A stretch of 64,000 nucleotides of DNA from Sulfurospirillum sp. 1612. Lineage in GTDB: Bacteria > Campylobacterota > Campylobacteria > Campylobacterales > Sulfurospirillaceae. Shown here piece by piece: positions 8,014 through 64,000 of the stretch (position 1 is its first letter; the number at the start of each line of letters is the position of its first letter). The translations under genes and the position numbers were made by a program. The DNA lies in NCBI RefSeq assembly GCF_036556685.1, contig NZ_CP140614.1, positions 1,178,001 through 1,242,000 of the forward strand. Direction: 5' to 3'. The notes under the pieces are model-generated. The model was not told the DNA's origin and did not search any database. It saw nothing but the letters and a program-made list of their open reading frames with translations.

Positions 8014-8598
8014 ATGAGAAAAAAGTTAATTATTATATTTTCAGCGATTGTTATCATCGCGGGGTTGGTTTTTGTTGGATTGCCTTATTATCAAAATCAA
8101 AAGCTAATCCAGCGCTATGCTTTCACGATGGATTCTGCAAGTGGCAAGGTTAGTTTAAAGGACTTTAAAGGCAAGATTGTCATTTTATATTTTGGCTATA
8201 TGTATTGTCCTGATATTTGTCCCACTACACTTAGCATGGTGAGTGATGCGCTTCATAAGCTTCCAAAAGAAGAGGCCAAAAGATTTCAATTACTTTTTGT
8301 GAGTGTCGATCCTGACCGGGATACGCTAAAAAATCTAAAAGCGTACGCGAACTATTTCTATCCTACAGCGATGGGCTTAACGTCAACAAAAGCTAATCTT
8401 AAAGCAGTGAGTCGAACGTTTGGAGCATATTATTCTAAGATTTACGATAAGGGCTCAAAAACCCAATATACTGTCGCACATACCTCATCAGTATATATTA
8501 TCAATACCCAAGGTATCTTAGAGAAGACAATACCTCACACGGAGGATGAAAATGTCTTCTTGAAAGCTTTTAAAACCGCATTAATCAAAAACCGCTAG
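8014..8598 (+). CDS. SCO1/SenC-family copper chaperone (plus-strand copy)
   Basis: 194 residues. One N-terminal membrane anchor (about 5-25), then a thioredoxin-like domain with CPDIC (Cys65, Cys69) and the distal histidine in VAHTSS (His156), the three Cu ligands of SCO proteins. It inserts copper into, or reduces, the CuA site of oxidase subunit II. It lies six bases after the PCu(A)C gene. Its stop codon sits inside a perfect hairpin shared with the convergent ctaB gene. A second, longer SCO protein heads the cox operon. Confidence 0.85.
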   Translation: MRKKLIIIFSAIVIIAGLVFVGLPYYQNQKLIQRYAFTMDSASGKVSLKDFKGKIVILYFGYMYCPDICPTTLSMVSDALHKLPKEEAKRFQLLFVSVDPDRDTLKNLKAYANYFYPTAMGLTSTKANLKAVSRTFGAYYSKIYDKGSKTQYTVAHTSSVYIINTQGILEKTIPHTEDENVFLKAFKTALIKNR

Positions 8599-11840: not shown

Positions 11841-13509
11841 GATGGGCTCCTTTTTTACTCTCATCTACAGACAAATCCATATGATGTACGGGTTCTCCTT
11901 TGATGTATTCATAAGGCATAAAGTCAACATAAGGAATCGTACCAAAATTCTCAGCTTGTGGCGGAGAAGGTATTTGCCACTCTAATGTGGTAGCATTCCA
12001 AGGATTTGGACCCGCAGGTTTACCTTTTCTAATTCCTTTATAGAGATTCACAAACATATAAATGAGTCCAAATGCAAAAATCCAAGACCCGACGGTCGCG
12101 ATTTGATGATAAATTGTAAATTGTGGCAGATAATCAAAATAACGTCGTGGCATGCCTAGTGCTCCGGCTACAAACATCGGAAACCAAAGCGTGTTGAAAC
12201 CGACAAAGATGATGTAAAAAGCGATTTTTCCATGCAATTCATTGTACATTTTACCCGTGACCTTTGGAAACCAATAGTGCATCCCTGCAAACATCAAGAA
12301 TACAACACCACCAAGGATTGCGTAGTGAAAATGCGCAACAACAAAATAGGTATCATGAAAATAAACATCCACACCAACCGCACCTAAAATCAATCCAGTC
12401 ATACCCCCGATAATGAAGGTGATAAAAGTACCTAAAGTCCATAACATCGGAGTATCAAAGACGATAGAGGCTTTGTACATCGTAGCAATCCAGTCAAAAA
12501 ATTTAATACTCGTAGGCACAGCGACCAAAAATGTCAAAACAGAAAAGACAAGTGCGACAGTATTGGATTCACCGGATGTAAACATATGATGTCCCCAAAC
12601 CAAATATCCGATAAATGCAATCATAGAACTTGAGATTGCAATGGCACGATAGCCAAAAATCGGCTTTCTACAAAAGGTCGGGATAATTTCTGAGGCGATA
12701 CCAAAGGCTGGTAAAATCATCAAATAAACAGCAGGATGAGAATACATCCAAAAGAGATTTTCTAATAAAACCGGATCTCCACCCTTTGTAGGGTCAAAAA
12801 CGCCCACGCCAAAAACACGTTCTAAAATAACTAAAACAAGAGTAATCCCGACAATAGGAGTCGCTAAAACTTGAATCCAAGAAGTCGCATACAAACCCCA
12901 AACAAATAGTGGCATTTTGAAAAATCCCATGCCTGGTGCTCGCAATCTGTGTGTGGTTGCGATAAAGTTAATCCCCGTTAAAATAGAGGCTAACCCTAGA
13001 AGATAGGCTCCTGTTAGGGCCATGACGATATTAGAGCCTGTTTTGGTACTGTATGGAGCATAAAAGGTCCATCCCGTATCGGGAGCATTGCCATTCCAAA
13101 AAAGCGATGTGAGTACGGCTATAATACCCAAAACAAAGACCCAAAAAGAGAGCAAATTGAGTCTTGGAAATGAAACATCTCGCGCCCCAATTTGCAGGGG
13201 AAGCAAGAAGTTCCCTAATGTCGCAGGAATCCCTGGTACAATGAAGATAAATATCATGATAATACCATGGAGCGTAAAGGCCTCGTTGTAGGTTTGTGGA
13301 CCCATGATTTGTTGCCCTGGATAAAATAACTCTAAACGCATGGACAGTGCTATCAAAACCGCAATGCCAAAAAACGAAAACATAACGATACCGTACATAA
13401 TCGCAATTCTTTTGTGGTCGATACTAAAAATCCACTGTAAAAACTTATTGTCATGATGTCCAAAAACCGTATGGGTTTCTTGATAAAAACTTGTGTGAGT
13501 ACTACTCAT
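11833..13509 (-). CDS. coxA: Cytochrome c oxidase subunit I (A2-type heme-copper oxidase)
   Basis: 558 residues with 12 membrane helices. The heme a ligand lies in FTLHGIIMIF. The CuB ligands are in YSHPAVYLMILP and GHHMFTSG, and the heme a3/a ligands in HDTYFVVAHFHY. The usual proton-channel Glu of HPEVY is replaced: the helix VI motif reads YSHPAVY, the signature of A2-type oxidases (as in Rhodothermus and Thermus caa3). It reduces O2 to water and pumps protons in the inner membrane. It sits between the SCO gene and coxC with eight-base overlaps at both ends. Confidence 0.95.
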   Translation of the reverse strand: MSSTHTSFYQETHTVFGHHDNKFLQWIFSIDHKRIAIMYGIVMFSFFGIAVLIALSMRLELFYPGQQIMGPQTYNEAFTLHGIIMIFIFIVPGIPATLGNFLLPLQIGARDVSFPRLNLLSFWVFVLGIIAVLTSLFWNGNAPDTGWTFYAPYSTKTGSNIVMALTGAYLLGLASILTGINFIATTHRLRAPGMGFFKMPLFVWGLYATSWIQVLATPIVGITLVLVILERVFGVGVFDPTKGGDPVLLENLFWMYSHPAVYLMILPAFGIASEIIPTFCRKPIFGYRAIAISSSMIAFIGYLVWGHHMFTSGESNTVALVFSVLTFLVAVPTSIKFFDWIATMYKASIVFDTPMLWTLGTFITFIIGGMTGLILGAVGVDVYFHDTYFVVAHFHYAILGGVVFLMFAGMHYWFPKVTGKMYNELHGKIAFYIIFVGFNTLWFPMFVAGALGMPRRYFDYLPQFTIYHQIATVGSWIFAFGLIYMFVNLYKGIRKGKPAGPNPWNATTLEWQIPSPPQAENFGTIPYVDFMPYEYIKGEPVHHMDLSVDESKKGAHHE

Positions 13510-60247: not shown

Positions 60248-61303
60248 TTAGAAAATATCAGTCGTTTTTTTCAGTTTTTCTTTGTCAAAATGCGTATAAA
60301 TACGAGACGTATTAATATCAGCATGTCCTAAAGATTCTTGCACGAGTATCAAATCATGACTTTTTTGGTACAGCAAAGTGGCAAAGGTATGGCGTAGCAT
60401 ATGGCACCCGTTTTTCTCTTTTCTAATACCTGCTGATATGAGTATTTGCTCCACAATTCGGCTCAAATAAGCTTGTGTGAGTTTCGTACCTTTTTGATTG
60501 CAAAACATCAAACCATCGTGACAATGATGGATCTCAAGCCAAGCTAAGAGATCTGATTGTATGATTTTTTCACGTATCATGACAACACGGGGCTTGTTGC
60601 CTTTGCCGCGTACTTGTATGACATAAGTATCTTCATCTTTAAAAAAATCACTCTTTTTGACGCCAATCGCCTCACCCACGCGAATGCCGGTATAGAGAAT
60701 CAGTTTGATAATCAAACGGTTTCTGATGCCGATTTCTGGGGTTTTGAACTCATAAGCGTCAATCGCTGCGATAAAACGCTGTACTTCATCTTTATTGAGG
60801 TAAGAGGGGAGTTTAATGCCCCCTTTTCCTCCTAATCCTCCCCAGTTCTTGAGTTCGATGCCATAGTGATAAGCCGTACCATTTTCATCACTATTTTGCT
60901 TGTCAATATAACTAAAAAAACTAAGCAATGCGATACGATAGTTCTTTTTGGAGGCATCGGAGAGTTGTGATGTTTCACTGGCCAAAAAATCACTCAATAA
61001 CTCTTCATCAATCTCTCGCATCGAAGCGGCACCAAAACGCATCAGATACTCATAGAGTTTTTCAAGTGGACGAAAATAGACATGAATGCCTCCCATGCCA
61101 ATATTTCTTGCATCATTGAGCCATTGTTTTAAGACCTTGATATTATCGCTGCCTTGAGCGAGATGCTGGATGATTTGAGCCAATCGATCTTTATCGGTGA
61201 CGTTGCGATTCGATAATGTCGTTATTTTGTTACGAGTAAATTTACTCAACCAAAAAAGATAGGTCTTACTAAATGTAGCTTCAAAGTCAAGAGGATATCT
61301 CAT
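60248..61303 (-). CDS. xerH: Tyrosine recombinase XerH (chromosome dimer resolution)
   Basis: 351 residues. It follows H. pylori XerH closely: ATKKNYRIALLSFFSYIDKQN-like core, GIRVGEA (catalytic Arg), the Lys in RGKGNKPR, LFCNQKGTKLTQAYLSR-like segment, HMLRHTFATLLYQKSHDLILVQESLGHA (HxxR and His) and the nucleophile Tyr in TSRIYTHFDK. It is therefore the host single-recombinase Xer protein acting at difH, not a phage integrase. A mobile element starts directly beyond its start codon. Confidence 0.92.
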   Translation of the reverse strand: MRYPLDFEATFSKTYLFWLSKFTRNKITTLSNRNVTDKDRLAQIIQHLAQGSDNIKVLKQWLNDARNIGMGGIHVYFRPLEKLYEYLMRFGAASMREIDEELLSDFLASETSQLSDASKKNYRIALLSFFSYIDKQNSDENGTAYHYGIELKNWGGLGGKGGIKLPSYLNKDEVQRFIAAIDAYEFKTPEIGIRNRLIIKLILYTGIRVGEAIGVKKSDFFKDEDTYVIQVRGKGNKPRVVMIREKIIQSDLLAWLEIHHCHDGLMFCNQKGTKLTQAYLSRIVEQILISAGIRKEKNGCHMLRHTFATLLYQKSHDLILVQESLGHADINTSRIYTHFDKEKLKKTTDIF

Positions 61304-61357
61304 GAGTATGCCTTGTGATGATTTATGGGTATTATAGCAAAAATTTCCTTAATTGTA

Positions 61358-61377
61358 TTGGAAACTATAATTTCCAA
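61358..61377. other. dif/att-like inverted repeat upstream of xerH
   Basis: TTGGAAA-CTATAA-TTTCCAA: 7-bp arms around a 6-bp spacer, 55 bp before the xerH start and 76 bp before the first element gene. Xer sites have two arms of about 11 bp around a short spacer, and their inner arms are the symmetric part. It is a candidate difH or element attachment site; promoter function is the alternative. Confidence 0.4.
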
Positions 61378-61452
61378 ACTCTTATTTGGTTGTATCGGCT
61401 TGAAACTTAAACGAGTTAGAAACAATGAGTTAAAACTTAAAAAGAGCATGTC

Positions 61453-62094
61453 ATGATAGACGTTAAACTCATAGATAAGTTTGAAAATGGGCGTACAACA
61501 GTAGAAAATGATATTTTACTTAATACAAGCTTGACAGCTACTGAAAAGATCGTATATATGTACATAGAAATGCTGAGCTACAAGGATAATTATTGCTATG
61601 CTACAAATCGTCAAATTTGTGATCTAACAGGTCATAGTATTGATGCACTAAAACAAGCAATTAAAAAATTAAAAAAGAAAAAATACATCGTAATTGATAC
61701 ACTACAAACTAGAACACCATATAAGCGACGAATATTTACAGAAACAAGATTTCTTAAAGCATGGAATTCAGCCACCCTACCCTCAGATTGTACAGTTAAA
61801 AATCCGATCAGGCGCATTGAAGAGTTGGACAGATTACAAATTAGTAAGTCTTTTGCAAAGTTTAGAAAATTCATGAAACTATATCTAACAGAAAATCAAT
61901 TTTTCATTGATACCGCGGGAGATTTACAAGCACAAATAATTGAGATTAAAAAGAATGGCTACTATCGCACAATAACATATAATAGGGATCTAAACAAAGA
62001 TGAGGCCATATTATTTGAAATGTTGATGTTTGATAAACGTGAAGCATTACTAGATGCTTTTTTCAAAAATAAGGAGTTAAAAAATGATTATTGA
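61453..62094 (+). CDS. Winged-helix protein, replication initiator or regulator of the element
   Basis: 213 residues. The N-terminal half is a winged helix: SLTATEKIVYMYIEMLSYKDNYCYATNRQICDLTGHSIDALKQAIKKLKKKKYIVI, like HTH_36 domains in phage and plasmid initiators. The C-terminal half is charged and unrecognised. It is the first gene of the element operon. Just upstream are repeated AACTTAAA and GAGTTA words (about 61402-61441) that could be its sites. Confidence 0.65.
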   Translation: MIDVKLIDKFENGRTTVENDILLNTSLTATEKIVYMYIEMLSYKDNYCYATNRQICDLTGHSIDALKQAIKKLKKKKYIVIDTLQTRTPYKRRIFTETRFLKAWNSATLPSDCTVKNPIRRIEELDRLQISKSFAKFRKFMKLYLTENQFFIDTAGDLQAQIIEIKKNGYYRTITYNRDLNKDEAILFEMLMFDKREALLDAFFKNKELKNDY

Positions 62095-62299
62095 AATTTT
62101 ATCTTTACAATATGACATGATCCAAAATATTATAAAAGAACAAATCGAAGATAGAAAAGGTGGCATTAGTATATTAAAAGGTGAAGATCACTTTTATGGC
62201 AATGACAATGAAGAGCGAACAAAACGAATAAAAGAATTAAAAAAAGAGATCAAGCAATTGATAGAACTAAGAAGAGCTTTAAAACGCGGCATAAAATAG
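62084..62299 (+). CDS. Small helical protein of the element
   Basis: 71 residues, overlapping the winged-helix gene by 11 bases. Strongly charged, with a C-terminal helix ERTKRIKELKKEIKQLIELRRALKRG of coiled-coil type and a basic end. No recognised family. It precedes the structured non-coding region. Confidence 0.55.
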   Translation: MIIEILSLQYDMIQNIIKEQIEDRKGGISILKGEDHFYGNDNEERTKRIKELKKEIKQLIELRRALKRGIK

Positions 62300-62311
62300 A
62301 TGTTTAACTCT

Positions 62312-62389
62312 TATACAGGGATACCGTAATTTCCCTATATAAGCGTTTTCATGTTACGGAATGAAAGCGCCTTTAATCAAAATAAAGGC
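62312..62389 (+). promoter_or_regulatory. Structured RNA/ssDNA element: two hairpins with complementary loops and a third over the ribosome-binding site
   Basis: Hairpin 1: AGGGA (62317-62321) with TCCCT (62332-62336), extendable by TATA/TATA past a bulged C. Hairpin 2: GCGTTTTCAT (62343-62352) with ATGAAAGCGC (62361-62370), 10 bp with one G-U. Loop 1 contains CCGTAA (62324-62329) and loop 2 contains TTACGG (62354-62359): a perfect 6-bp kissing interaction. Hairpin 3: GCCTTTA (62369-62375) with TAAAGGC (62383-62389) hides the AAAGG site of the gene at 62395 and shares two bases with hairpin 2. It may be a packaging or replication signal, or a translational switch. Confidence 0.6.
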
Positions 62390-63074: not shown

Positions 63075-63634
63075 ATAAAGGAGCGGAAAAAGTAACGGAT
63101 AATGGCGTAGATATGGATATTCCTTTTGATGACATAAAAAGCACGAAGGAAGATATAACCAGGACTGAGTTAATGCAGAAGACGGGCAAAGAATTGGCAA
63201 AAATCGCCCTCCCCTATACAAATTTAAAAGAAGTTACATTAACAAAATTAAGCAAAGCCGAACTTTGCGACATAATACTAACAAAAGGAGCAAATAGAGA
63301 GCAAACAGAGCCAAAGGCAAGAGCAAACAGAGCCAAAAGCGATAGCGAGGCGATTATTGATACATTTTTGGCTATTGCAGAGAGTTTTAAGCTAAAGAGA
63401 GAGCAAGAGCCGCTTAATGCAGCAGCAAAACAGATTTTTAAAAATAATGCAGTCAATATCGTTGATAAAAAGGTCGAAGATGAAACAGTAAGTAGCCACG
63501 GCGTTAATACGGCAGTCGTAATTGTAGCGGGTGCATTTTTGGCTATTGATGGGATTATAGGCTTAGCGAATATTCCAACATTTTTAGGAAAGTTAAAAAG
63601 TAAATTTAATGCTAATAGAACAAAGACAAAATAA
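63071..63634 (+). CDS. Element protein with one membrane segment
   Basis: 187 residues. A soluble N-terminal region with a KTGKELAKIALPYTNLKEVTLTKLSKAELCDIILTKG segment of SAP-like helix character, a low-complexity stretch encoded by short DNA repeats (about residues 72-92), and a membrane helix (about 147-168). Function unknown. It overlaps the ATPase gene by 26 bases. Confidence 0.5.
   Translation: MNKGAEKVTDNGVDMDIPFDDIKSTKEDITRTELMQKTGKELAKIALPYTNLKEVTLTKLSKAELCDIILTKGANREQTEPKARANRAKSDSEAIIDTFLAIAESFKLKREQEPLNAAAKQIFKNNAVNIVDKKVEDETVSSHGVNTAVVIVAGAFLAIDGIIGLANIPTFLGKLKSKFNANRTKTK
63288..63337 (+). repeat. Helically phased short direct repeats inside an element gene
   Basis: GAGCAAA begins at 63288, 63299 and 63321, i.e. 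at steps of 11 and 22 bp. The last two are part of identical 17-bp copies (GAGCAAACAGAGCCAAA at 63299-63315 and 63321-63337). The step of 22 puts the copies in different reading frames, so they are not conserved for the protein. Iteron-like. Confidence 0.5.
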
Positions 63635-64000
63635 AATTATTACAGTCATAGGGCATAAGGGCTATGGAAAGACAGCTTTAACAGAAGCACTTATGCTCAT
63701 GTACAATAAGCCGACTATAATTGCAGATCCACGATTTCAATATTCTACATTTCAAAATCGACGGTTAAGTTTTCAATCCGTTGGAAAGTTTAGAAAGTGG
63801 ATATATAACACGGCAAATTTCAAAGTTTTTTATAAATACAAGTTAGAACTAATCGTTAATGCTTTTGATGATACTTTTGATGAACTTGCAAGTATCGTTG
63901 CACAGATGAGATCTTTGATGTTTGTCGTCGATGAAGTAGATATGTTTTTAGATCCTCGGGCTACAAAAAAGAACTCCTTGAACAAGATTATACAATATGG
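63609..64000 (+). CDS. P-loop ATPase of the viral packaging/export type, partial
   Basis: The frame opens at the ATG at 63609 and stays open to the window end (130 residues seen). Walker A VIGHKGYGKTAL (about residues 14-25), TIIADPRFQYS after it, and Walker B LMFVVDEVDMFLD near residue 112. This spacing and the ADPRFQY stretch resemble HerA/FtsK-like genome-packaging ATPases of tailless viruses; Zot-type export ATPases of filamentous phages are the alternative. The C-terminal half is missing, so the family cannot be fixed. Confidence 0.65.
   Translation, partial: MLIEQRQNKIITVIGHKGYGKTALTEALMLMYNKPTIIADPRFQYSTFQNRRLSFQSVGKFRKWIYNTANFKVFYKYKLELIVNAFDDTFDELASIVAQMRSLMFVVDEVDMFLDPRATKKNSLNKIIQY

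Follow-up and report, generated by a model that had tools for sequence, protein, structure and literature searches.

In phage lambda, a stem-loop in the leader of the S holin gene (sdi) sets holin translation and the timing of lysis. To our knowledge, lysis timing in tailless double-jelly-roll phages has been little studied. Loop-loop contacts close to a Shine-Dalgarno (SD) sequence are known from the guanidine-II riboswitch (mini-ykkC), a two-hairpin mRNA leader in which a proposed kiss between the loops is thought to make the nearby SD accessible, and P1 of this riboswitch is reported to dimerise through its loops (PMC9300104). A kissing hairpin has also been predicted in the picornavirus 3' end of Senecavirus (PMC9189406). 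For PM2-like (corticovirus-type) prophages, PMC1950889 and PMC5894146 describe a double-jelly-roll capsid protein, an FtsK-type ATPase, and lysis and replication genes that can be exchanged. Here we analysed 64 kb of DNA from Sulfurospirillum sp. 1612 (the whole stretch is called the window), in which three hairpins precede a holin-like gene. With moderate confidence, we regard this element as a cis-acting structure in an intercistronic mRNA leader that would control translation of the holin-like gene of a double-jelly-roll virus; the direction of regulation and its trigger are as we infer them below.

Structure of the element and chance expectation

The whole element spans 62310-62389 and is composed of three directly adjoining hairpins, P1, P2 and P3 (Table 1). 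Folding energies, computed without the kiss, are -10.6 kcal/mol for P1 (arms CTTATA-c-AGGGA / TCCCT-a-TATAAG), -12.3 kcal/mol for P2 (arms GCGTTTTCAT / ATGAAAGCGC) and -6.2 kcal/mol for P3 (arms GCCTTTA / TAAAGGC, enclosing a 7-nt loop). P1 and P2 meet without a linker, and G62343 is able to pair in either hairpin. The initial annotation had described two hairpins with loops complementary over 6 bp and a fully paired second stem containing one G-U; both are present, at 62310-62370. It had placed the hairpins 6 bases apart, whereas they adjoin in a structure that starts at 62310. Its pairs and loops were right and its spacing wrong. It noted neither P3 nor the SD, and the provirus setting at difH/XerH and the probable identity of the downstream gene as a holin were also absent from it.

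Table 1 Features of the element and of its surroundings in the window
Feature	Position	Strand	Details
Host xerH recombinase gene	60248-61303	-	Phage_int_SAM_6, Phage_integrase; adjoins attL
attL, difH site TATTGGAAACTATAATTTCCAAACT	61356-61380	+	partner attR at L002 11515, outside the window
Winged-helix replication-initiation-like protein, 213 aa	61453-62094	+	HTH_36 4e-10, RepL 2e-4, PHROG replication initiation 3e-10
71 aa ORF	62084-62299	+	stop codon 10 nt upstream of P1; possible translational coupling
P1 hairpin	62310-62321 paired with 62332-62343	+	11/12 pairs, one C.A mismatch
P1 loop	62322-62331	+	TACCGTAATT
Kissing sequence CCGTAA, loop 1	62324-62329	+	6/6 complementary to 62354-62359
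P2 hairpin	62343-62352 paired with 62361-62370	+	10/10 pairs, one G-U
P2 loop	62353-62360	+	GTTACGGA
Kissing sequence TTACGG, loop 2	62354-62359	+	ATTCGG at L022
P3 hairpin GCCTTTA-N7-TAAAGGC	62369-62389	+	contains the Shine-Dalgarno; 62369-62370 common to the P2 base
Shine-Dalgarno-like AAAGG	62384-62388	+	6 nt upstream of ATG 62395
Holin-like membrane protein gene, 132 aa	62395-62793	+	PHROG 31219 1e-22; putatively controlled by the element
Packaging ATPase, 218 aa, runs past the window end	63609-63998	+	profile A1 matches STIV B204 packaging NTPase, E 1e-7

The structure had been judged hard to explain by chance, and this assessment held. A 101 nt region around it folds with z = -4.5, none of 200 shuffles being equally good. 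When the window was scanned for kissing hairpins (two neighbouring hairpins with complementary loops), the element came out on top with a score of 59.5-60, and 150 dinucleotide shuffles gave an expectation of ~0.007 pairs at that score or better per 64 kb strand. No shuffle of the intergenic region, out of 20,000, reached the score. Given the loop compositions, six perfect loop-loop pairs have p = 0.0046; loop complementarity by itself is a modest share of the element's improbability. The runner-up of the same scan, at 13134-13208 on the minus strand (GCAAAT/ATTTGC), scored 55, near chance level.

AT-rich intergenic DNA often contains isolated hairpins, yet a chance structure, an ordinary operon hairpin or a terminator is scarcely credible as an account of an element that is so rare in shuffles and is conserved with compensation in L039 and L022, two relatives that contradict it. 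A terminator was rejected separately, as there is no plus-strand T-run at this place. Because the two relatives keep the shape with different letters, we take it to be a genuine control element, not described before, and not a product of chance.

A provirus at difH and its holin-like gene

The genome was read beyond the window end as L002, in which position 2356 corresponds to window position 61356. A plus-strand gene block lies there between two difH-like sites, L002 2356 and 11515, 9,159 bp apart, so that the complete provirus occupies L002 2356-11540 (9.2 kb). The attL site fits the difH consensus published for Campylobacterota (PMC3325230), and genus mates have the identical 25-mer difH next to their xerH orthologues. 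With its flanking sites and the site in genus mates recognised, this difH-flanked provirus beside xerH has the make-up of a Xer-exploiting integrated element; Pfam and PHROG profiles detected no integrase among the proviral proteins scanned (the set less a few short ORFs). From left to right, the provirus encodes the replication-like protein, the 71 aa ORF, membrane proteins of 132 aa and 94 aa after the element, p187, the packaging ATPase, the capsid protein and several small membrane proteins, with a 181 aa PHROG 3108 protein downstream. The earlier placement of the hairpins, within a mobile element and ahead of a gene for a membrane protein, agrees with this difH-flanked provirus and the holin-like gene that follows them.

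The capsid protein of the window provirus matched the C-terminal domain of PM2 P2 (P2_C) at 5e-5, just under the curated cut-off. A predicted model of its L039 homologue (63% identical; mean pLDDT 81.7) matched PRD1 P3 (4e-21), STIV (2e-18) and PM2 P2 (9e-15), and ssDNA double-jelly-roll phages of the FLiP type were absent from the best structural matches listed for this model. The FtsK/HerA-type packaging ATPase expected of the double-jelly-roll lineage (PRD1/PM2/STIV) is present. Since a double-jelly-roll capsid protein and a STIV-B204-type packaging ATPase are both encoded, the provirus is, on sequence and predicted structure, a tailless double-jelly-roll virus and not a filamentous ssDNA phage, and by analogy its genome is presumably dsDNA.

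These features bear on the possibility that the element acts as a DNA-level signal, such as a single-strand origin, a packaging site or a cruciform. Compensation in stems does not tell RNA from single-stranded DNA, and the minus strand of the element folds about equally well (kissing-hairpin score 59). Such a signal is nevertheless very unlikely in a virus of the double-jelly-roll type with a STIV-like packaging ATPase, whose replication protein carries an initiator domain of the winged-helix type, with no rolling-circle family reported by Pfam or PHROGs, and in an element that lies against a start codon and has the corresponding SD inside it. The initial suggestion of a packaging or replication origin of an ssDNA virus is not supported, given the same virus type, STIV-B204-like ATPase and position at the start codon.

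The identity of the gene after the element comes from its counterparts. Its 132 aa product matches only PHROG 31219, which has no named function, and, weakly, PHROG 9646; profile searches with Pfam and PHROGs gave it no direct holin match. A match to PF11351 lay below the cut-off. The genes at the same position in L039, L022 and L044 match the PHROG 3427 holin at 2e-15 to 3e-18 (L039 2e-15, L022 7e-17), and for this reason we call the 132 aa gene holin-like and consider it a probable lysis gene.

In the window and in L022, the element separates the replication genes from the block that runs from holin to capsid (L039 is cut by a contig end). Gene-block boundaries of this sort typically have stacked hairpins. 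A processing or mRNA-stability element at the junction of early genes (rep) with late ones (lysis, capsid), blocking an exonuclease or offering an RNase III cut, would result in unequal amounts of early and late messages. We consider this unlikely, as it leaves unexplained both the loop complementarity and the presence of the SD inside P3 in all three proviruses.

Provirus relatives also lie beside xerH in L023, L031, L033 and L034, and XerH-site proviruses are a family in Campylobacterota. IMG/VR scans with the ATPase, the capsid protein and p187 found no relatives, and tblastn with the capsid protein found no match in the phage collection; the holin-like protein retrieved from IMG/VR one tailed-phage-like contig, L019, which is without the element. 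Near the distal end of the window provirus, an inverted repeat with 82% complementary arms (L002 10794-10842) holds a second TACCGTAAT, the loop 1 sequence, and may be due to chance. Near attR (L002 11123-11199), the 24-nt sequence TAGCTAGTGTCTGTTAGACACCAG occurs three times as a direct repeat, and every copy contains an inner palindrome; these copies could be iterons or repressor sites.

Relatives with the element and covariation

Related proviruses in other Campylobacterota were found through searches with the ATPase. The two closest, L039 (ATPase 75% identical to that of the window provirus) and L022 (69%; a Sulfurospirillum MAG, on the same contig as L040), have the three-hairpin element at the same place, upstream of PHROG 3427 holin genes. 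In L039, the first hairpin is TTTGAGGAGG-ATACCGTAATTC-CCTCCTCAAA and the second GCGTTTCT-TGGTTACGGACAT-AGAAACGC, followed by the SD hairpin and the start codon (ATG) of a holin-like gene of 146 aa. Its loops equal those of the window over the conserved core, and its stems are re-sequenced with compensation: pairwise alignment gave four two-sided compensating changes in P1, along with repair of the window's C.A mismatch, and two in P2.

The L022 element, picked up at the homologous spot by the same kissing-hairpin scan (1 in 20,000 shuffled versions of that intergenic region being as good), consists of TTAAACAAT-CCTCTGAATGGC-ATTGTTTAA, GGTGTTTT-CTAATTCGGTAA-AAAACACC and a P3 of the form CCTAAT-N5-ATTAGG that includes the SD, after which a holin-like gene of 140 aa begins with its ATG. 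Both stems and the loops differ from those of the window, and the loops are still complementary (CTGAAT/ATTCGG; p = 0.0025 with the register allowed to shift by ±1, p = 0.03 with any register). From window to L022 the kiss goes from CCGUAA/UUACGG to CUGAAU/AUUCGG, with two pairs changed on both sides and one C-G replaced by U-G, counted from the explicit arms and not from the fitted alignment. Loops varying without complementarity, the finding named initially as one that would speak against the element, were thus sought in homologues, and those of L022 vary yet stay complementary. Elsewhere in L022, a long hairpin of ~18 bp lies directly 3' of the replication gene (8181-8236), and the capsid gene loses homology towards its 3' end, not far from where the contig stops (11874-11940), possibly through a frameshift.

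The three-row alignment, which was fitted to the structure, has 12 pairs changed on both sides, a number that none of 500 shuffles reached. In it, 93% of cells are paired, falling to at most 54.5% when the partner is slid by 1-3 columns; L022 loop 2 is one column off, so that the kiss scores 78% there. As the three members belong to one host family and amount to two independent comparisons, the covariation supports the stems strongly and the kiss moderately. All three stems are well supported by these comparisons, and kissing draws its support from one divergent relative, L022, where alone the loop-loop pairing covaries.

Conserved loops could alternatively mark a mainly protein-binding RNA, in which a protein of phage or host recognises ATACCGTAATT and GTTACGGA, the complementarity being that of an inverted-repeat recognition site, and blocks or exposes the SD. 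The loops of the window and L039 are indeed letter-for-letter the same while the stems have changed, as expected of a binding site, but a fixed recognition sequence does not predict L022, in which both loops have changed and remain complementary. We give this alternative a small though appreciable probability.

The initial annotation had proposed a covariance search of Campylobacterota. Run with models of the element on 44 family and 399 order genomes, it recovered the members in the window, L039 and L022 and gave no further clear member; the other hits of the family-wide search look like chance. A candidate at L033 7726-7813 was rejected as a member, its E of 2e-4 with covariance model R1 being 0.018 with model R2 and a clean P1-P2 pair being absent. 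What this more distant provirus has at the equivalent place before the gene is a strong hairpin that sequesters the SD. At that position the element is absent from the more distant proviruses L023, L026, L034, L044 and L075, and none of 17 matches to the loop pattern in IMG/VR had both stems. The element is a narrowly distributed family.

Proposed control of the Shine-Dalgarno and comparison with known systems

P3 encloses the SD in the window, L039 and L022, with a spacing of 6-7 nt to the ATG. Folding models predict the SD to be almost fully paired in the window (unpaired probability ~0) and L039. The bases of P2 and P3 overlap by one or two nucleotides; in L022 a CC common to both pairs with the GG of the SD, which makes full P2 and full P3 mutually exclusive. 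The L022 model favours full P2 over P3 and leaves the SD largely open, so a default OFF state is not uniform. The distance from the stop codon of the upstream ORF to P1 is 10 nt in the window, 20 nt in L022 and ~6 nt in L039, where the frame is a predicted one at a contig edge. The mRNA control element entertained at the outset is probably the right description.

In the mechanism that we propose, P3 in the mRNA would block ribosome entry and keep holin output low. Kissing of loop 1 with loop 2 would lock P1-P2 as one compact module and stabilise P2, which could then take over the G-C pairs holding the SD in P3 and so free it. Because the bases of P2 and P3 share nucleotides, anything that stabilises P2, the kiss included, should open the SD, and that the kiss leads on to SD release is our inference. 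The trigger might be ribosomes finishing the upstream gene (translational coupling), for which traffic would be a natural candidate since that gene stops 6-20 nt before P1, or else a phage or host factor, and the likely purpose would be the timing of lysis. The lack of a linker between P1 and P2 may put strain on a kiss of six pairs within one molecule, and pairing of the loops between two RNA molecules (dimerisation) is a possible alternative.

We suggest, tentatively, that the element could be the first of a class of phage lysis-timing RNA switches in which linker-free kissing hairpins compete with an SD-hiding hairpin and which, on sensing a ligand, a protein or ribosome traffic, would release holin translation. 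The element provides a concrete, testable RNA in front of a probable holin gene, with loops that predict compensatory mutants exactly. The analysis also documents a provirus family at difH beside xerH in Campylobacterota.

The expectation that no described family has this form was upheld against Rfam, where the element had no match above the gathering threshold and the sole match in the window was a tRNA. The guanidine-II (mini-ykkC) covariance model was not among the matches up to E = 10 in the window or L039. No holin or phage leader with kissing loops was among the listed results of literature searches in a collection that lacks many subscription journals, and term searches of PMC1950889 and PMC5894146 gave no Sulfurospirillum or Campylobacter member and no hairpin element. 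The provirus resembles the PM2-like prophages of those sources in its double-jelly-roll capsid protein and FtsK-type packaging ATPase (PMC1950889 and PMC5894146), and differs in being integrated at difH beside xerH in Campylobacterota. With the Senecavirus 3' end the element has in common a predicted loop-loop kiss in a short untranslated region, but there the kiss sits at the 3' ends of RNA genomes and not in leaders of bacterial or phage genes (PMC9189406).

Like lambda sdi, the element is a structured RNA where a (probable) holin gene begins and would set translation and lysis timing, whereas sdi is a single hairpin acting through a choice of two start codons, with no kissing loops. By analogy, the nearest mechanism is that of the guanidine-II riboswitch, with which it shares two hairpins, a proposed kiss, an mRNA leader and a nearby SD (PMC9300104). 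Guanidine-II has ACGR in both loops, a kiss of two G-C pairs and a linker (PMC9300104); the element has loops of 8-13 nt, six pairs, no linker, a dedicated third hairpin for the SD and a holin-like gene. In the window and L039, ACGG occurs in loop 2 but loop 1 has CCGU, and the L022 loops hold neither, so the defining ACGR loop pair is absent. The element is a previously undescribed RNA family, and kissing hairpins near an SD are an already known kind of device.
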